NCBI RefSeq assembly: GCF_000211835.1
Contig: NZ_AEGR01000093.1
Location: 62,001 to 126,000 of the forward strand
DNA: 64,000 nt
Direction of reading: 5' to 3'
DNA from: Hylemonella gracilis ATCC 19624
Lineage (GTDB): Bacteria; Pseudomonadota; Gammaproteobacteria; Burkholderiales; Burkholderiaceae_C
In this document: positions 39,189 to 46,262 of the stretch, one piece after another
Layout of the letters: each line of letters begins with the position of its first letter
Numbering within the stretch: the first letter of the stretch is position 1
The notes under the pieces: generated by a model
Seen by the model: the letters and a program-made list of their open reading frames with translations, nothing else
Database searches by the model: none
What the model was told of the DNA's origin: nothing
Translations under genes and position numbers: made by a program

Positions 39189-40544
39189 CTAGGCCCGGTT
39201 GTCGGCCGCGTCGCCGGCGCCTTCGGCCTGTTCCGTCGCGGGGGGTAGGCGTACCTCCGCGCGCAGGCCGCCGTGCGTGAGATTGCTCAAGCGCACGTCG
39301 CCTCCATGCGCGCGCAGCAGGTTGCGCGCGATGCTCAGGCCCAGGCCGGAGCCGCCCGTGTCCCGGTTGCGCGACATCTCCAGGCGCAGAAAGGGGTCGA
39401 ACACCCGCTCCAGCTGATCCGGCGGAATGCCCGGACCCTCGTCCTCGATGCCGATGACGATCTGCCCGTTCTCTTCGCTCAGCCGGATGCGCGCCTGCTG
39501 GCCATAGCGCACGGCGTTGTCCAGCAGGTTCTGCAAGGCGCGCCGCAGCGCGCGCGGTGCCGCGTGGACCGGCGGCTGAACCTCGCCTTGGCAAACGCAG
39601 TTCTGGCCTGCGTCGCGCATGTCCTCGGCCATGGCCTCGCACAGTGGACCGAGGTTCAGCAACTGGCGCGGTTCGCGCAGGCTGGCGCTCTCGGCGTAGT
39701 CCAGGCCGTCCTGGATCATGGCGCGCATGGCGTCGATGTCGGCCACGAAGCGCTCCCGCTGCTGCGCCGGTGCGTGGTTCTCGGCGCGCAGGCGCAAACG
39801 GGTCAGTGGGGTCTTGAGGTCGTGCGAGATGGCCGCCAGGATCTCCGTGCGCTCGGCCACGTGGCGCTGGATGGCGCGCTGCATCGCGTTGAAGGCGTGG
39901 GCCGCGCGGGCGACTTCCACGGGCCCATTCTCGGGCAGCGGCGGTGCGTGCAGATCTCGGCCCAGTGCCTTGGCCGCGGTGGCCAGGCGCGAGAGCGGGC
40001 GGGTGGTCTGCCGCACCGCCAGCCACGCCACCAGCATCACCGCCAGGCACAGCACGGCCAAGTAGGCAAAGCCCGTCGACAAGGAGGGCAGTGACAGCGG
40101 GCGTTCGCCGAAATGCACCAGCAGCGTCTGCTCCTGGTCGATCGGCAGCGACAGGAAGGGCTGGTCGGGTATCGCGCACAGCGCCACGGCCCCCAAGTTT
40201 TGCCCCGCCTGCGCGTGCAGGCTGTCGGCGAGTTCGGTGGCGTGCGGGTGCGTGCAGCGTGGCGCCGGGGAGGCGCCCTGGATCAGCTCGAAGCCGTAGT
40301 AGCCCCGATCCAGGTTCTTGAGCCAGATGCCGCGTTGATCGGGGGGCAGGCTGCGCAGGAAACGCTGCACGAAGGCGACGTCGGCGCTCATGAAGGCGTA
40401 CATCTGCGCGCGCCCCGCGCGCGCGCTGACGGCCAGCACCGCGATGAAACTGGCCGCTTGAATGAACACGGTGGCCAGCACCAGGATCAGCATCACGCGC
40501 GCGGTGAGCGAGCGCATGGCGCGCGGCAAGGTTGGCTTTTTCAT
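39189..40544 (-). CDS. EnvZ-like sensor histidine kinase
   Basis: The 451-residue inner-membrane kinase has helices at about 13-38 and 158-178 bounding a periplasmic domain of about 120 residues. HAMP follows, then the dimerisation/phospho-acceptor segment AAISHDLKTPLTRL with His241. The ATP-binding domain shows NLLDNAVRYG, DEGPGIP and GGSGLGLSIARN. The ordering matches the EnvZ/OmpR class. Its ATG overlaps the stop of the upstream response regulator (ATGA), so the pair is translationally coupled. Periplasmic cysteines at about residues 97 and 123 could form a disulfide. The signal is unknown. Confidence 0.92.
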   Translation of the reverse strand: MKKPTLPRAMRSLTARVMLILVLATVFIQAASFIAVLAVSARAGRAQMYAFMSADVAFVQRFLRSLPPDQRGIWLKNLDRGYYGFELIQGASPAPRCTHPHATELADSLHAQAGQNLGAVALCAIPDQPFLSLPIDQEQTLLVHFGERPLSLPSLSTGFAYLAVLCLAVMLVAWLAVRQTTRPLSRLATAAKALGRDLHAPPLPENGPVEVARAAHAFNAMQRAIQRHVAERTEILAAISHDLKTPLTRLRLRAENHAPAQQRERFVADIDAMRAMIQDGLDYAESASLREPRQLLNLGPLCEAMAEDMRDAGQNCVCQGEVQPPVHAAPRALRRALQNLLDNAVRYGQQARIRLSEENGQIVIGIEDEGPGIPPDQLERVFDPFLRLEMSRNRDTGGSGLGLSIARNLLRAHGGDVRLSNLTHGGLRAEVRLPPATEQAEGAGDAADNRA

Positions 40545-41284
40545 CGCGCTGCCTGAGCGCAGGACGTGACCGCCATGCAGAACACATACCCCTCGTTGCG
40601 CACCGTCTTGATGTAGGCGGGTTCCCGCGCGTCGTCGCCCAGGCGGCGGCGCAGGCGGCTCACCCGCAGGTCGATGCTGCGGTCATACACCTCGGCATCG
40701 CGCCCCGCGAGCTGGGCCAGCAACTGATCGCGGTTGACGATGCGCTGCGGGTGCCGCAACAGGAAACGCAACAAGGCGTACTCGGCACCCGACAGCGGCG
40801 TGACGGCACCGCGCGCGTCCACCAGGTGCCGCGCCACGGTGTCCAGGCGCCAGGCACCAAAGGCCAGGCAGGGGGTGTCGTCGTCCAGGCCCGCGCTGGT
40901 GGGCAGTGCGTGCGTGCGCCGCAGCACGGCGCGGATGCGCGCCACCAACTCGCGCGGCTCGAAAGGTTTGGGCAGGTAGTCGTCCGCGCCCATTTCCAGG
41001 CCGATGATGCGGTCCACGTTGTCGCCGCGCGCCGTCAGCATGAGCACCGGCACGTGGGCCCATTCGCTGTCGCGCAACCAGCGCAGCAGGCTCAAGCCAT
41101 CCTCGCCCGGCAGCATCAGGTCCAGCACGACCAGGTCCACCGGGGCGGCCCGCAGGGTTGCACGCATCTGACGACCGTCCGCCGCACAGTCCGCGCGCAG
41201 GCCTTGTCCGCCGAGGTACTCGGCCAGCAGCGCGCGGATATCGGGGTCGTCATCGACAACCAGGATGCGGTCGTTGCGTTCCAT
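40541..41284 (-). CDS. OmpR-family response regulator
   Basis: This 247-residue DNA-binding regulator has a receiver domain with acidic residues in VVDDDPD, phospho-acceptor Asp55 in LVVLDLMLPGEDG, and KPFEPREL. It is followed by an OmpR/PhoB winged helix with LSGAEYALLRFLL and the DNA-recognition region around YDRSIDLRVSRLRRRLGDD. The start at 41284 (MERNDRILVV) is family-typical. It pairs with the downstream kinase. It diverges from the DUF2141-ABC operon across a 200-base gap that contains four TGTATC half-sites, its probable operator. Confidence 0.93.
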   Translation of the reverse strand: MERNDRILVVDDDPDIRALLAEYLGGQGLRADCAADGRQMRATLRAAPVDLVVLDLMLPGEDGLSLLRWLRDSEWAHVPVLMLTARGDNVDRIIGLEMGADDYLPKPFEPRELVARIRAVLRRTHALPTSAGLDDDTPCLAFGAWRLDTVARHLVDARGAVTPLSGAEYALLRFLLRHPQRIVNRDQLLAQLAGRDAEVYDRSIDLRVSRLRRRLGDDAREPAYIKTVRNEGYVFCMAVTSCAQAAR

Positions 41285-41360: not shown

Positions 41361-41427
41361 TGTATCCCAGTGTATCGACCGGGTCCGCCGACGCGTGCCG
41401 ATACAAAAATCAAGGGCCTGGGATACA
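41361..41427. promoter_or_regulatory. Candidate operator with four TGTATC half-sites
   Basis: TGTATCCCAG (41361-41370) and TGTATCGACC (41371-41380) form a direct repeat with 10-base spacing. On the opposite strand TGTATC occurs at 41405-41400 and 41427-41422, spaced 22 bases. The outer TGTATCCCAG is a perfect inverted repeat of CTGGGATACA at 41418-41427. Helical-turn spacing of direct repeats is typical for OmpR-family regulators. The array is 57 bases before the DUF2141 start. Confidence 0.6.
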
Positions 41428-41484: not shown

Positions 41485-41925
41485 ATGCATTCGTACACAA
41501 ACCGCCCGCTGGCCTGCGTGCTGTTGGCCTTGTCGTCCTTCTGCGCCTCGTCCGCCTTACCCGCCTTCGCTGCCGACCTGGTGGTCGAAGTCGAGGGCCT
41601 GCGCGGGACCCAAGGCGTCGTCTCGGTCGGCCTGTTCGACAAGCCGGAGAGCTTTCCCAAGCAGTTCACCAGCGGTCTGCGCACGCCGGCCGACAAGCCC
41701 GTGGTGGAGGTCGTGTTCCGTGACATCCAACCCGGCCGCTACGCGGTCTCGGCCTACCAGGACGAGAACGGCAATCTGGAACTGGACCGGGGGCTCTTCG
41801 GCATTCCCAAGGAGCCCTATGGCTTTAGCCGCGATGCGCGTGGCACCGCCGGCCCGCCCGAGTTCCGCGACGCACGTTTCGACCTGGGCGCCGAAGGCGC
41901 GCGCATCCGCATCAAGCTGCGCTGA
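41485..41925 (+). CDS. DUF2141 secreted protein
   Basis: This 146-residue protein has a clear signal peptide (cleavage about residue 29, PAFA-ADL). The mature DUF2141 domain includes GVVSVGLFD, the GRYAVSAYQDENGNLELD motif and a C-terminal KEPYGFSRDA segment. The family is a small beta-sandwich of unknown function that occurs in envelope proteins. The Asp/Asn/Glu-rich DENGNLELD loop could bind calcium, but that is inference. It is the first gene of the envelope operon that continues with an ABC transporter 8 bases downstream. Confidence 0.85.
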   Translation: MHSYTNRPLACVLLALSSFCASSALPAFAADLVVEVEGLRGTQGVVSVGLFDKPESFPKQFTSGLRTPADKPVVEVVFRDIQPGRYAVSAYQDENGNLELDRGLFGIPKEPYGFSRDARGTAGPPEFRDARFDLGAEGARIRIKLR

Positions 41926-41933
41926 GGCCCGCC

Positions 41934-42701
41934 ATGGACACCTCCGCAACCCCGGCCGCGCCCCGGCCACTCGCGCGCCTGCGCGGTCTGCGCAAGAACT
42001 ACCACCTGGGTGAGGTGCAGGTGCCCGCGCTGCGCGGCATCGACCTTGACATCACGGCCGGCGGCTTCACCGTGATCGCTGGCCCTTCGGGCAGCGGCAA
42101 GAGCACCTTGCTGCACGTCCTAGGCTGCATCGACCGGCCCGACGCCGGACAGGTCGAGATCGATGGCATCACGCCGCGGGAGCTGAACGACGACCAGCTC
42201 AGCGCGTTCCGCGCGCGCCGCATCGGCTTCGTGTTCCAGAACTTCAATCTGCTGCCCGTGCTCAACGCGCTGGAAAACGTGGAGTACCCCATGCGCCTGC
42301 TGGAGCGAGACGGCACGCGGCGGCGCCAGCGCGCGCGCGAACTGCTGGCCGCGGTGGGGCTGCAAGGGATGGAAACGAGGCGGCCCAACCAGCTGTCCGG
42401 CGGGCAGCGCCAGCGCGTGGCGATCGCCCGCGCCCTGGCCAACGCGCCCGGACTGGTGCTGGCCGACGAGCCCACGGCCAACCTGGACCGCCAGACCGGC
42501 GCCGACATCATCGCCTTGATGCGCCGCATCCAGCGCGAGACCGGCGCGAGTTTTGTTTTCTCCTCGCACGATCCGGCCCTGATCCAGGCCGCCGATGTCC
42601 TCGTCCGCATCGCCGACGGCCAGATCGTCCCACCCCTGACCCCGCCCGCGGCGCCGTCCGTACCGACCGCCCAGGAGGAAATCCGCCATGAATCTGTTTG
42701 A
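41934..42701 (+). CDS. ABC transporter ATP-binding protein (LolD/MacB class)
   Basis: The 255-residue ATPase has Walker A GPSGSGKST (50-58), the Q-loop FQNFNLLPVLNALENV, the signature LSGGQRQRVAIARAL, Walker B LVLADEPTANLD, and an H-loop in FSSHDP. The FNLLPVLxALENV stretch and overall length place it with LolD, MacB and FtsE-type mechanotransmission ATPases. These act with FtsX-fold permeases rather than importers. It overlaps the permease gene by 14 bases. It follows a secreted DUF2141 protein and precedes a LolA-like protein, which suggests lipoprotein or envelope-substrate handling. Confidence 0.92.
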   Translation: MDTSATPAAPRPLARLRGLRKNYHLGEVQVPALRGIDLDITAGGFTVIAGPSGSGKSTLLHVLGCIDRPDAGQVEIDGITPRELNDDQLSAFRARRIGFVFQNFNLLPVLNALENVEYPMRLLERDGTRRRQRARELLAAVGLQGMETRRPNQLSGGQRQRVAIARALANAPGLVLADEPTANLDRQTGADIIALMRRIQRETGASFVFSSHDPALIQAADVLVRIADGQIVPPLTPPAAPSVPTAQEEIRHESV

Positions 42702-44094
42702 CCTCGCCTGGCGCAACCTGCTGCGCAATCGCCGCCGCAGCCTGCTCACCTTGGGCGCCCTCGCGGTGAGCGCGATGGCCCTGGTCATCTTTGGCGGCTA
42801 TGTCGCCACCATCATCAGTGCCTTGCAGACGGAAACCGTGCGCGAGACCGGCCACTTGCAGATCATGCGCAAGGGCTTTCTCGATTTCGGCCGAGGCAAC
42901 ACGGCCCGCTACGCCATCCGCGATCACGCGGCGTGGATCGACCGCATCCGCGCGGACGCCGAACTGCAGCCCTTGCTGCGCGTGGTCACGCCCGTGCTGC
43001 AGGTGCAGGGCGTCGCGGGCAATTTCGCGGCCGGCGCGTCCAGCACCTTCGCCGGGACCGGCTGGCTCGCCGCTGATCGCGACGAGATGCTGGCCTGGGC
43101 CGGCGCGGGGCTGCCCCTGCCGCCACGCGCCAATCTCTTGCGCGCTGACCAGCCCCAGGGCGGTGTCATCGGTCTGGGGCTGGCCCAACTCCTGGCCCTG
43201 TGCGAAGCGCTGGAGTTGCGCGATTGTCTGCGTCCGCCCGCGGAGGCTGCGCCCGAAGGCGCGGCCATGGCGGCTGACCTGGGGGCCTTGGTTCAGCAAG
43301 CGGGTGCCGTCGCTCAGGGCCGCGCGCCGGCCAGCGATGCCGTGCCCGGCATCGAGTTGCTGTCGTCCACCAGCGGCGGCGCGCCCAGCGTGGTGCGCAT
43401 GGACATCCTGCGCACCGAGCGCCAGGGCGTGCGCGAGCTGGACGTCTCTTTCGTGGCCATGCCATTTGGCTTGGCCGAGCGTCTGGTGTTCGGCCCGGGC
43501 GGGCATGGGGCCTCGGCCATCGTCGTGCAGCTGGCCGACACCGCGCAAGTCCCGCGCGCGCAGGCCCGCTTGCAGGCTTTGCTGGCCAGTCACCCTGGAG
43601 GTGCGGACTTGGAGGTTCGGCCCTACACCGAGGTGCAACCCCAGTACCTGCAGGTGGTCGGCATGTTCGAGGCAATGTTCCGCTTCGTGGCTCTGCTGAT
43701 GGGTGCGGTCACGCTGTTCTCGGTGGCGAATGCCGTGGGCATGTCGGTCGGCGAGCGGGTTGGCGAAATCGGCACGCTACGTTCCCTGGGCTTTCGGCGT
43801 GGCCATGTGCGCCGCATGTTCATTCTGGAAGGGGTGCTGATTGGCGTGCTGGGGGCCGTGGTCGGCGTGCTGATCGGTGTGGTGTTCAGCGAGTACGTGA
43901 TCAACCGCGCCGGCTGGTCCTGGACGCCGCCCGGCCGGGTGATGCCGGTCCCGGTGGGCGTGGACGTGTTCGGCCATCCAGCCCTGTTCCTGGGCACGGT
44001 GCTGGCGCTGGCCGGTCTCGCGGCCCTGTCATCGCTGCTGCCGGCCAACCGCGCCGCGCGCATGCAAATCGTGGAGGCTTTGCGTCATGTCTGA
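42688..44094 (+). CDS. FtsX-like ABC permease (LolCE/MacB class)
   Basis: The 468-residue permease begins MNLFDLAWRNLLRNRRRSLLT, the LolC/E-type amphipathic entry and first helix (about 18-40). A large periplasmic domain covers about 45-325. Three C-terminal helices follow in the FtsX domain (about 330-352, 383-410, 430-450), with TLRSLGFRRGHVRRMF in the coupling loop. A single permease implies a homodimer, unlike LolCE. The ATG lies inside the ATPase gene and the stop inside the next gene, so expression is tightly coupled. The cargo is unknown. Confidence 0.9.
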   Translation: MNLFDLAWRNLLRNRRRSLLTLGALAVSAMALVIFGGYVATIISALQTETVRETGHLQIMRKGFLDFGRGNTARYAIRDHAAWIDRIRADAELQPLLRVVTPVLQVQGVAGNFAAGASSTFAGTGWLAADRDEMLAWAGAGLPLPPRANLLRADQPQGGVIGLGLAQLLALCEALELRDCLRPPAEAAPEGAAMAADLGALVQQAGAVAQGRAPASDAVPGIELLSSTSGGAPSVVRMDILRTERQGVRELDVSFVAMPFGLAERLVFGPGGHGASAIVVQLADTAQVPRAQARLQALLASHPGGADLEVRPYTEVQPQYLQVVGMFEAMFRFVALLMGAVTLFSVANAVGMSVGERVGEIGTLRSLGFRRGHVRRMFILEGVLIGVLGAVVGVLIGVVFSEYVINRAGWSWTPPGRVMPVPVGVDVFGHPALFLGTVLALAGLAALSSLLPANRAARMQIVEALRHV

Positions 44095-44917
44095 ACACTC
44101 AAGTGATCCCGGCTCTCCAGCACATGGAGCGCACCTTCGACGCGCGTGGTTGAGTGCTGGTGCCGCATTGCTGCTGGCTGCCCTGGCCTGTGCGGCCCGG
44201 GCCGGGGAGCGCAGCGCCGAGGAAATCCTGCAAGCGGCCGATGCCATCCGCAACCCCCCTGGCAGCTTCTCGGTGCGCTTGCAACTGACCGAATACCGCC
44301 AAGGCCGCCAAAGCGCCAACTCCGCGCTCATCGTCTACGCGCGGCCCAGTGTCGACAGTGGGCAGTACCGCAATCTGGTGCAGTTCGTGGCGCCCGCGCG
44401 CGACGCGGGCAAGCTGATGCTGCGCAATGGCGCGGACCTCTGGTTCTACGACCCTTCCAGCCGCGCCAGCGTGCGCATCTCGCCGCAGCAGCGCCTGCTG
44501 GGCCAGGCCTCCAACGGCGACGTCATGACCACGCAGCTGGCCCGGGACTACCGAGCGGAAAAAGTCGGACCTGAGCTGCTCAAGGATGGCGAAGGCGTGC
44601 AGCGCGATAGCCTGCACTTGCGCTTGAGCGCGCTGCGCGACGACGTGTCCTACGCGCGGGTGGACCTGTGGGTCGACGCGGCCGATGACCGGCCCCTGAT
44701 GGCGCGTTATTACTCGGCCGAGGACCGCCTGCTCAAGACCGCCTACTTCCGCCGCTACGAGACTGCGCTGGGCCGCGTGCGACCGACCGAGACGGTCATC
44801 ATCGACGGGCTGGACGGCGGCTGGGTCACGGTGATGCGCAGTGCGGACCATGCGACGCGCGAGGTGCCGGAAGCCTGGCTGCAACGCGATTACCTGCCGC
44901 GCTTCCGTGCCCAGTGA
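44087..44917 (+). CDS. LolA-like outer-membrane lipoprotein-sorting family protein
   Basis: The 276-residue exported protein has an extended N-terminus with the hydrophobic signal at about 18-40. The mature domain starts ERSAEEILQAADAIRNP and contains the beta-sheet segments SFSVRLQLTEYRQG, KLMLRNGADLWFYDPSSRASVRISP and the ARVDLWVDAADDRPL strand. This is the pattern of the LolA-like 'outer membrane lipoprotein-sorting protein' family, a half-barrel carrier of hydrophobic cargo. It overlaps the permease stop by eight bases and sits before an outer-membrane protein gene. It may take cargo from the permease across the periplasm. Confidence 0.82.
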   Translation: MSEHSSDPGSPAHGAHLRRAWLSAGAALLLAALACAARAGERSAEEILQAADAIRNPPGSFSVRLQLTEYRQGRQSANSALIVYARPSVDSGQYRNLVQFVAPARDAGKLMLRNGADLWFYDPSSRASVRISPQQRLLGQASNGDVMTTQLARDYRAEKVGPELLKDGEGVQRDSLHLRLSALRDDVSYARVDLWVDAADDRPLMARYYSAEDRLLKTAYFRRYETALGRVRPTETVIIDGLDGGWVTVMRSADHATREVPEAWLQRDYLPRFRAQ

Positions 44918-44936
44918 CGAGACGACGGAGCACGGC

Positions 44937-46262
44937 ATGCACAAACTCTTCTGGCTGCGCCCGTGGGCACGCGCATCTTTCGTCGGCCCTCCTCTCCTGG
45001 TCGCGGCCCTTCTCCCGTGGGGGCTGGCCGCGCAGGGCATGGAGCCGCTGCCCGATCCGCTCGCCTTGGGGGTGGAGGCGTCCGCGACCGACGAACGTCT
45101 GGGGCTGAAGCTGGAGGCCTGGGCCCAGGGCATGGACCTGCGCCGCGAGGCTGGCGAAGCCGAGCGCCTGGGGCGCGCGGTGCTGGATTTCCGCCGCGAG
45201 TGGCCGGTGGGCGATGGCGAGCGTTGGGTCGTGTCGGACCGGCTGGAGGCCGTGGAATACCAGGGCGCCGCCGATCGCATGGATGGCACGCGCCGCAACG
45301 CCCTGCGCGAGCTGTACTTCAGCGCGCAGGCCATGCCCTCGTGGTACGTGGACGCGGGCCGCATCAACCTGCGCCAGGGCGTGGGCCTGGGCTACAACCC
45401 GAGCGACTATCTGCGCGAGAACGCGGTGGTGATGCGCAGCTCGCAGAACCCCGCGGCCCTGCGCGAAAACCGGCTCGGCGCGGTGATGGTGCGCGCGCAG
45501 TGGCTGCACGACGAGGGCTCGGCCCAGCTGGCCGTGTTGCCTCAGCTCAGCGACGCGGACCGTTTCGACGACGACACCTGGGCCTTGGGCCTGGAGCGCA
45601 CCAACCGACAGGGCGCGGCCTTGCTGCGACTGTCCCCGCGCACCGGCGAACGCCTGGCCGTGGACTTCACCGCTTTCGCGCGCGACGGGGACGCGCCGCA
45701 GATGGGCAGCAACCTTTCTTGGACGGCCACCGATGCGCTGCTCCTCCAACTCGAATGGAGCGGTGGCCGCCGCGCGCCGTTGCCCACCGTGAATGCCGGC
45801 ACGACCGCCGCGGACGAACGCTGGTTCAACCGTCTGGCCGCGGGCGCGTCTTGGAGCTCGCCGTGGGGGCCGGTGTTGAGCCTTGAGCAGCACTACGCGG
45901 GTGATGCCCTGTCGGAGGCCGAGTGGTCGGCGTGGCGCACGGCCACGCGGCCAGCGGCTGGCCGCTTGGGCGCCTTGCGCCAAGACCTGCAAGAGCGGCA
46001 GGACCTGCTGACCCGGCGCTATGGCTTTGCGCGCCTGGGTTGGGACCGCGCCTTGGACCTGGCCAACCTGGACCTGAGCGCCTTCGTGCGGCGTAACACC
46101 GCAGACGGCAGCGCCTTCTGGCAGGCGGAGGCCGTCTGGCATGCCAGCGAGCGCTGGGATCTGGGCCTGCAGCACACGCGCAGCACCGGCGCTGACGACA
46201 GTGAGTTCGGCGCGGCGCCGGTCCGCGCCACGGTGGCCTTGTACCTGCGCTGCTTTCTGTGA
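44937..46262 (+). CDS. Predicted outer-membrane beta-barrel protein of the LolA-like/ABC operon
   Basis: I do not recognise a named family with certainty. The 441-residue product has a signal sequence (about 1-30, WGLAAQG) and then alternating-pattern strands rich in Trp, Arg and Asp, such as LGLKLEAWAQGMDLR, ALRELYFSAQAMPSWYVDAGR and ERWDLGLQHTRS. The protein ends in a final strand ATVALYLRCFL with a C-terminal aromatic-like residue. That is the look of a porin-sized barrel. The start at 44937 is 19 bases after the LolA-like stop. It is the last gene of the five-gene operon and the natural outer-membrane end-point. Confidence 0.7.
   Translation: MHKLFWLRPWARASFVGPPLLVAALLPWGLAAQGMEPLPDPLALGVEASATDERLGLKLEAWAQGMDLRREAGEAERLGRAVLDFRREWPVGDGERWVVSDRLEAVEYQGAADRMDGTRRNALRELYFSAQAMPSWYVDAGRINLRQGVGLGYNPSDYLRENAVVMRSSQNPAALRENRLGAVMVRAQWLHDEGSAQLAVLPQLSDADRFDDDTWALGLERTNRQGAALLRLSPRTGERLAVDFTAFARDGDAPQMGSNLSWTATDALLLQLEWSGGRRAPLPTVNAGTTAADERWFNRLAAGASWSSPWGPVLSLEQHYAGDALSEAEWSAWRTATRPAAGRLGALRQDLQERQDLLTRRYGFARLGWDRALDLANLDLSAFVRRNTADGSAFWQAEAVWHASERWDLGLQHTRSTGADDSEFGAAPVRATVALYLRCFL

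Follow-up and report, generated by a model that had tools for sequence, protein, structure and literature searches.

Described systems of related composition

Several described systems resemble, each in part, the operon reported here. With the LolCDE-LolA-LolB lipoprotein route it shares the ATPase and permease fold and the idea of a carrier. It differs from the MacAB-TolC efflux pump in that no MacA-type adaptor was detected by Pfam among its five proteins. For Borrelia BBJ23-29, the available text describes an ATPase, a LolA-like protein, an Omp85-type barrel and a proposed homodimeric MacB/LolE-like permease acting on a non-polar cargo (PMC13078400). This is likewise one cluster holding an ATPase, a permease, a LolA-like protein and an outer-membrane barrel, but two TPR proteins and BBJ29 set it apart, as probably does the Omp85 type of its barrel, in a comparison made by description rather than by sequence. 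YbbAP-TesA includes a Type VII transporter able to lift hydrophobic compounds; its partner is a hydrolase, and the accessible portion of the source names neither a carrier nor a barrel (PMC12646458). Thalassolituus TOL_3187-3188, tied to long-chain alkane in the text available, also has a LolA-like domain followed by a predicted porin, but there MMPL/RND domains are fused to the LolA-like domain in place of an ABC transporter (PMC6304351).

The Burkholderia afc (AFC-BC11 lipopeptide) cluster holds counterparts of four of the operon's proteins, namely the ATPase afcB, which is BCAS0221 in the excerpted source (PMC2753556) and the ATPase of the cassette by gene order, the permease BCAS0220, the PF17131 protein BCAS0219 and a barrel. 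Dedicated trafficking across both membranes has already been suggested for this cluster in the available text of PMC12186527. Within the same excerpts, afcD was dispensable for production (PMC12186527), whereas an earlier source counts both it and afcB among the genes that matter for antifungal activity (PMC6301696); because these sources disagree on afcD, the older afc phenotypes need care. Deletion of afcI, the outer-membrane channel gene, left production unchanged in the text accessible (PMC12186527). That profile measured production and not export, yet it lends no support to an exporter reading.

The first-pass annotation knew of no named system with exactly the operon's parts. This holds for the general family, of which no description was found in the open-licence PubMed Central literature among the matches listed, but must be amended for the afc cluster, which by gene order has the same four parts, and for Borrelia BBJ23-29, which has near equivalents. 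The four-gene set is of a known kind, but as a variant it has gone largely undescribed. Little is known of the way in which Gram-negative bacteria move amphiphilic natural products and unusual lipids across the periplasm, and a cassette with an outer-membrane partner other than LolB offers a defined, testable four-gene unit.

The operon and its conserved core

The operon lies in a 64-kb stretch of the Hylemonella gracilis ATCC 19624 genome, hereafter the window. The sequence and its open reading frames confirmed five tightly packed genes, all on the + strand and in the order first proposed, with a regulator pair on the opposite strand. The features are as follows.

39189-40544, - strand: EnvZ-like sensor histidine kinase with HAMP, HisKA and HATPase_c domains; accessory, divergent from the operon
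40541-41284, - strand: OmpR-like response regulator; accessory, divergent from the operon
41361-41427, no strand assigned: putative regulator-binding region, with TGTATC at 41361 and 41371 (10-bp direct repeat) and GATACA at 41400 and 41422
41485-41925, + strand: DUF2141 secreted protein with a hydrophobic N-terminus (PF09912, 108 bits by Pfam; hydropathy); accessory
41934-42701, + strand: LolD/MacB-type ABC ATPase (ABC_tran PF00005, 114 bits by Pfam); core
42688-44094, + strand: single FtsX/LolC/E-type permease (FtsX PF02687, 70 bits by Pfam; AlphaFold2 model); core
44087-44917, + strand: LolA_like periplasmic carrier (PF17131, 110.7 bits against a gathering cut-off of 30 bits); core
44937-46262, + strand: predicted outer-membrane beta-barrel of 18 predicted strands with an OprD/Occ- and AlgE-like fold (AlphaFold2 model); core

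Successive junctions from the DUF2141 gene to the barrel gene are an 8-bp gap, a 14-bp overlap, an 8-bp overlap and a 19-bp gap; an alternative GTG start of the barrel gene is possible at 44841. A PHROGs search gave no match, and a PDB search found no solved relative of the DUF2141 protein by sequence.

The gene set was then compared among relatives, using the 80 top-ranking loci out of 346 relatives, a selection that favours near relatives and contains many MAGs. The ATPase, FtsX permease, LolA_like protein and barrel were all present in 74 of the 80, and as separate genes, in order and on one strand, in 73; the difference is L088, in which ATPase and permease share one open frame, and the 74 include three loci whose barrel is cut by a contig end (L075, L093 and L095). 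Among the six without the full quartet, L069, L080 and L106 end at a contig edge, L098 and L120 lack the permease between ATPase and LolA, and L126 has only LolA and barrel. The four core genes are thus not dispersed in relatives, and it is they that stay together, whereas the DUF2141 gene was found beside the cassette in only 5/80 relatives, and the five-gene set originally proposed as the unit was rejected. The heritable unit is the quartet, with the DUF2141 gene and the regulator pair as add-ons of the window's clade. This clade comprises 14 members with a FastTree local support of 1.0, in a tree using 75 of 81 sequences. Since L008 and L067 share one layout (Derxia gummosa), the 85 loci compared are in effect 84.

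More distant cassettes were sought by examining 18 of 24 more distant LolA matches and taking all eight with the order ATPase-permease-LolA (L052 and L054-L060), whose LolA proteins are 29-34% identical. In each of the eight a remote barrel homologue stands immediately 3' of LolA (E 3e-4 to 3e-20), and the barrel is therefore deduced to be an old part of the unit.

The cassette occurs in Betaproteobacteria and a Myxococcus; a sample of 120 genomes from the order contained six with it, one of them the window genome. Its varied backgrounds and mixed neighbours would suit general phospholipid or glycolipid transport for outer-membrane upkeep. Such sparseness is unlike a housekeeping lipid route, and the regulator and cluster links given below suggest a conditional cargo; we consider this explanation very unlikely.

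Predicted folds and the proposed route

The AlphaFold2 model of the permease (pLDDT 93) has four long TM-type helices and one large periplasmic domain. Of five hydropathy peaks, the weakest (residues 159-177) falls inside that modelled domain. The best VIA-align match was LolE (Z 25.3, rmsd 5.6, 364 aligned), LolE and LolC being the closest folds. With its FtsX domain, four modelled TM helices and a large predicted periplasmic domain after TM1, the permease fits the Type VII (FtsX/MacB/LolE) ABC transporters. A LolA_like profile built from six relatives matched the solved protein NE2245 (3buu) at 1.1e-46; nothing on NE2245 was found in the open-licence PubMed Central literature.

The fifth protein is predicted to be an outer-membrane barrel, as the first-pass annotation had supposed. 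Its AlphaFold2 model has 18 strands with a mean pLDDT of 86, residues 1-53 being poorly modelled. The closest folds were OprD/Occ and AlgE, the OprD/Occ match having Z 23.4, rmsd 3.5 and 306 aligned residues at 9% identity, and Omp85 and LptD barrels were absent among the best 50 rows of this comparison (Foldseek's best 1000 chains). By sequence, the window protein matched no Pfam family. Taken together, 67 barrel members hit seven families with E values of 0.1 or below, and the OprD/Occ Pfam model was not one of these. Against the PDB the barrel sequence gave four matches, three small designed proteins and one fluorescent fusion, with a best E of 0.033.

OprD/Occ proteins are mostly uptake channels, and with such channels among the closest folds an uptake system may be envisaged, with the barrel as the entry point for a compound that the ABC part then uses. 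By Pfam, none of the five genes encodes a binding protein of importer type, no FtsX-type transporter is known to act as an importer, and LolA-type carriers work outward. Uptake is considered highly improbable.

The window genome encodes canonical LolC/E, LolD and LolA away from the operon, and the operon is therefore deduced to be a parallel system, in agreement with the first proposal of a parallel Lol-type route ending in a barrel; the quartet would thereby be freed for another cargo. Against the LolD equivalog TIGR02211 (cut-off 307.75 bits) the operon ATPase scored 218.4 bits and the genome's other LolD 310.6 bits, while against the lolCE model (cut-off 362.45 bits) the operon permease scored 72.5 bits and the canonical permease on C14 scored 456 bits. 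The operon carrier had PF17131 as its sole significant Pfam family, neither of two further matches (E 0.04 and 0.08) being PF03548, and it had no NCBIfam match, TIGR00547 included; the canonical LolA (PF03548/TIGR00547) was located on C34. As first noted, LolB is missing from the five genes, and PF03550 had no match genome-wide by Pfam, which could miss a divergent LolB. The operon thus differs from LolCDE-LolA-LolB in its one permease, its PF17131 carrier, the barrel in LolB's place, and its sparse distribution alongside canonical Lol genes.

These data lead us to propose, with about an even chance of being right, that the quartet is a conserved envelope exporter relaying a lipid or lipopeptide from the inner membrane to the outer-membrane barrel. 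By analogy, the ATPase and a homodimer of the FtsX permease would form a Type VII ABC transporter, in which cytoplasmic ATP use would lift an amphiphilic molecule from the inner membrane at its outer face. The hydrophobic cavity of the LolA_like protein may then ferry the cargo across the periplasm to the 18-stranded barrel, which would replace LolB as acceptor so that the cargo reaches the outer membrane or the surface.

Lipids or lipopeptides are the most likely cargo class, ahead of lipoproteins. A lipoprotein route would match the Lol-like permease and carrier, and is one option offered for BBJ23-29 in the available text of PMC13078400. It is nevertheless judged unlikely, given that canonical LolC/E, LolD and LolA are already present, that ATPase and permease score far under the Lol cut-offs, that the closest folds of the barrel are porin- and AlgE-like, and that some cassettes adjoin small-molecule, lipid-type biosynthetic genes.

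Regulators and biosynthetic neighbours

The two-component system thought to be attached to the operon is indeed present on the opposite strand, but is accessory: a divergent OmpR/EnvZ-type pair adjoins the cassette in 10/80 relatives. In the window's clade this pair probably switches the operon on through the TGTATC repeats. The upstream region holds four of the five occurrences of the TGTATC/GATACA hexamer in the window, and the same four elements are kept in L061, L062 and L063, with varying spacing of the last; the remaining seven regulator-type relatives retain them in part or not at all. Regulator and conserved site together give a handle for finding the inducer. Allowing up to two mismatches, the motif had 27 matches in the genome against 26 for a reversed control, so a large regulon was rejected and only the strict form was used. 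The strict TGTATC-repeat form, defined post hoc after the C60 site was seen, recurs once in the genome.

In another 10/80 loci a LytS-type kinase lies directly 3' of the barrel, with a LytTR-type regulator grouped in eight of them; Pfam identified the kinase in L103 and L194 only, and the remaining nine of the ten were assigned by BLAST grouping. Together with the conserved site, these pairs would suit an inducible envelope-defence pump, in which a membrane-active compound detected by the two-component system would be cleared from the inner membrane by the quartet, as Bce-type ABC/two-component pairs do in Gram-positives. Compound-making clusters also carry related cassettes, as they often carry self-resistance genes. 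At the remaining 60 loci no pair of either type directly adjoined the cassette, and a resistance phenotype was not found; we hold such a pump to be quite unlikely.

For the preferred lipid or lipopeptide exporter, no experiments on members of the window's clade were found, and cargo clues come from neighbouring genes. The distant cassette L195 repeats the four parts and their order, placed after the AMP-ligase gene of a B. cepacia afc-type cluster; its gene content and order suggest that it is the Burkholderia afc cluster, with BCAS0218 or AfcI as its barrel. Homology to the window is weak but significant, with 43% identity for the ATPase and 25% for LolA, and matches by profile only for the permease (8.9e-50) and barrel (5e-5). 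Besides this distance, the afc cassette differs in that it belongs to a single lipopeptide cluster and has a LysR-type gene in its vicinity, and no DUF2141 gene or EnvZ/OmpR pair was seen adjoining it. It is possible, though doubtful, that there is a general class of LolA-relay exporters for lipids and lipopeptides, combining a Type VII ABC transporter, a PF17131 carrier and an 18-stranded exit barrel in a shuttle distinct from TolC-type channels and Lpt bridges; producers would export their product, and others would use it for two-component-switched defence or surface remodelling.

KAS-III-like biosynthetic genes lie within 6 kb of the cassette in three of the 14 clade members. This family was found at 3/80 loci, the neighbours at the others being mixed, a point against the preferred reading. 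The orthologous genes stand directly 3' of the barrel in L096 and L105, which share an ATP-grasp gene, and about 6 kb off in L081; an ACP was identified in L105. Unlike the afc cassette, that of the window has no lipopeptide-cluster link, and the sole KAS-III-like match in its genome is weak (4.3e-9, 36 bits) and was taken for housekeeping FabH. As there is no stronger match, the idea that a KAS-III cluster makes the window's cargo was rejected. Among the ten regulator-type relatives, a stronger match was seen only in the genome of L062 (1.1e-31).

Composition of the operon and its relation to the housekeeping Lol set

The span that the first-pass annotation had assigned to the five genes agreed with both the gene calls and the sequence, which place them as follows:

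41485-41925, + strand, DUF2141 protein
41934-42701, + strand, ATPase
42688-44094, + strand, FtsX permease
44087-44917, + strand, LolA_like protein
44937-46262, + strand, barrel

The families proposed for the first four proteins were recovered in order by Pfam (DUF2141, ABC_tran, FtsX and LolA_like PF17131), and the same scan gave no family for the fifth. The outer-membrane barrel proposed for the latter is supported by a structure model predicting 18 strands (pLDDT 86, residues 1-53 poor). Most of the best 41 VIA-align rows for this model (Z 20.5-23.4, 7-14% identity) were OprD/Occ porins and AlgE; chitoporins and Campylobacter MOMP were also present, and the highest plain Foldseek matches were OmpM1, OmpF and AlgE (TM about 0.4-0.5). 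The permease model (pLDDT 93) matched LolE and LolC best, followed by HrtB, YtrF and MacB (Z 25-20, rmsd mostly at least 5), and the LolA_like profile matched the solved structure NE2245. For the opposite-strand upstream pair, the top matches were OmpR and EnvZ models, both under cut-off.

The operon's ATPase and permease fell far under the NCBIfam Lol cut-offs. A LolC/E permease (456 bits, cut-off 362), LolD (310.6 bits, cut-off 307.75) and LolA are encoded elsewhere in the window genome, an arrangement that bears out the earlier suggestion of a parallel Lol-type route; LolB was not found in a Pfam search of this genome, possibly owing to a sensitivity limit. Judged by sequence, the operon is distinct from the housekeeping Lol set.

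Conservation and clade of the quartet

The quartet of ATPase, permease, LolA_like and barrel is real, conserved and largely undescribed. Of 120 genomes sampled from the order, six had a barrel relative (window genome counted); LolA and permease adjoined the barrel in all six, and the ATPase was confirmed in the other five. LolA matches occurred in 24 of the 120 in two tiers, the same six genomes at at least 55% identity and the remainder at 30-39%. Eighteen loci of the distant tier were fetched: eight had the order ATPase-permease-LolA, each followed by a remote barrel homologue, and ten with a divergent LolA (L043-L051, L053) had a sister arrangement in which the ATPase diverges from the PF17131-like gene. 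No significant barrel match was found in these ten, and two FtsX permease hits lay nearby in five (L043, L045, L049, L051, L053). In the phylum sample, the barrel profile matched 13 of 299 genomes, strongly in only two, the window genome among them.

A scan of named genomes with the LolA alignment yielded 346 relatives, and the best 80 were kept. The gene set, which the first-pass annotation had proposed to seek in other genomes, recurred as the four core genes in 74 of these 80, separate, in order and on one strand in 73 (median gaps -1, 48 and 144 bases); the fifth member, DUF2141, was found in six members of the window's clade. In L088 (6061-8115) a single open reading frame holds ATPase and permease, possibly a natural fusion. 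The permease is missing from the cassettes of L098 and L120, and ATPase as well as permease from that of L126, which may reflect decay or assembly gaps. A Myxococcus cassette (L196 7521-14227) contained an ATPase and PF17131, gave two permease hits and matched the barrel weakly. In L119 and L138, a gene about 0.4 kb past the barrel may encode a secreted lipase, which it resembles by sequence.

In a midpoint-rooted FastTree tree of permease and LolA from 75 sequences, the window belonged to a 14-member clade with local support 1.0. The divergent OmpR/EnvZ-type pair was present in eleven members, six of which carried DUF2141, a family that according to PMC5989583 is co-located with a carotenoid gene in sphingomonads and has no known function. 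The remaining three members formed one branch (support 0.996): L081 is a Rubrivivax MAG, L096 is Myxococcus dinghuensis and L105 is a Burkholderiales MAG. They shared orthologous KAS-III-like genes, which in L096 and L105 lie immediately 3' of the barrel; in L081 the distance is about 6 kb. KAS-III matches in genomes of other clade members were weak, except for that of L062 (1.1e-31).

Small orthologous biosynthetic clusters
L096 11397-17691, KAS-III-like genes and ATP-grasp
L105 11162-17473, KAS-III-like genes, ATP-grasp and an identified ACP

The ATP-grasp gene is common to both (56%). That orthologous clusters occur both in a Myxococcus and in a Burkholderiales MAG suggests that they moved between phyla along with the cassette.

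Elsewhere in the tree, a LytS-type kinase immediately followed the barrel at ten loci, eight of which also had a grouped LytTR-type regulator. In a further B. cepacia LK29 quartet (L194 24-6652), the contig end truncates the ATPase; a LytS/LytTR-type pair follows this quartet, a layout also seen in Chitinibacter and Vogesella relatives.

The afc cluster and the proposed export route

Quartet homologues were also located in a second B. cepacia LK29 locus:

L195 5628-16254, quartet homologues between an AMP-ligase gene and AurF/KAS-III-type genes

The AMP-ligase gene is followed by those for ATPase, permease, PF17131 and barrel, in that order; three genes that match no Pfam family then separate the barrel from the AurF-type and KAS-III-like genes. 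A LysR-type gene lies upstream. By gene content and order this cluster is identified as afc, the Burkholderia cluster for the lipopeptide AFC-BC11. A 12-kb stretch of it aligned end to end, at 92% identity, with a B. cenocepacia record without listed genes. PMC2753556 gives BCAS0222 as afcA, BCAS0221 as afcB (ATP-binding, marked a pseudogene in that genome) and BCAS0220 as a putative permease, and one table of PMC7565204 lists BCAS0219 as PF17131. PMC12186527 describes AFC-BC11 as an N-acyl tetrapeptide and suggests that a trafficking system operates across both membranes; afcI is named there as an outer-membrane channel, and its deletion did not alter production. Both afcB and afcD are said to be important for antifungal activity in PMC6301696, yet afcD was dispensable for production in PMC12186527. 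The second KAS-III of both L096 and L105 shares 36-37% identity with the KAS-III of L195. Against the window cassette, tblastn identities were 43% (ATPase) and 25% (LolA), and for the L195 permease and barrel, matches came from the profiles alone (8.9e-50 and 5e-5); on these comparisons the afc cassette is only a distant relative.

Type VII transporters lift their cargo from the inner membrane by ATP-driven action. Gene order, families, predicted folds and the conserved site are observed. On the proposed route, ATPase and permease would lift cargo out of the inner membrane in this established manner, LolA_like would receive it and the barrel would accept it, the cargo being presumably lipid-like. 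The quartet is of the same kind as Lol and Type VII systems but differs in its outer-membrane partner. Lifting of hydrophobic molecules by a related transporter is supported by PMC12646458. A Borrelia cluster described in PMC13078400 is comparable, but its barrel is of the Omp85 type. In PMC6304351, an MMPL protein that carries a LolA-like domain and precedes a predicted porin was raised during growth on a long-chain alkane. The best reading, which we hold with evenly balanced confidence, is export of a lipid or lipopeptide at the level of the class, the claim leaving aside the window's particular cargo.

The TGTATC/GATACA site

TGTATC/GATACA occurs five times in the 64-kb window, four of them inside 67 bases between regulator and operon, a clustering with a Poisson chance of about 3e-11 at window density for a hexamer chosen after looking. 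The four elements were kept in L061, L062 and L063, the last being spaced differently in L062 and L063, only in part in L064-L067, L073 and L074, and not in L083. Conservation in L062 weighs less because the hexamer is common there (12 in 18.8 kb). We infer that these elements may be bound by the neighbouring regulator.

The strict form TTGTATCNNNNNGTATC occurred twice in the window genome, twice in that of H. gracilis, and once each in the L062 and L063 genomes; it was absent from two Derxia genomes, and its reversed control gave 0 in all six. The second of these sites, of the TTGTATC type, is syntenic and conserved between the window genome and that of H. gracilis; it lies 5' of two genes, one for a CsoR-type repressor (PF02583) and one for a 5'-nucleotidase, and is a possible further target of the same regulator:

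G000:C60:49747 (L179 3749-3830), second site in the window genome
L226 4257, second site in H. gracilis
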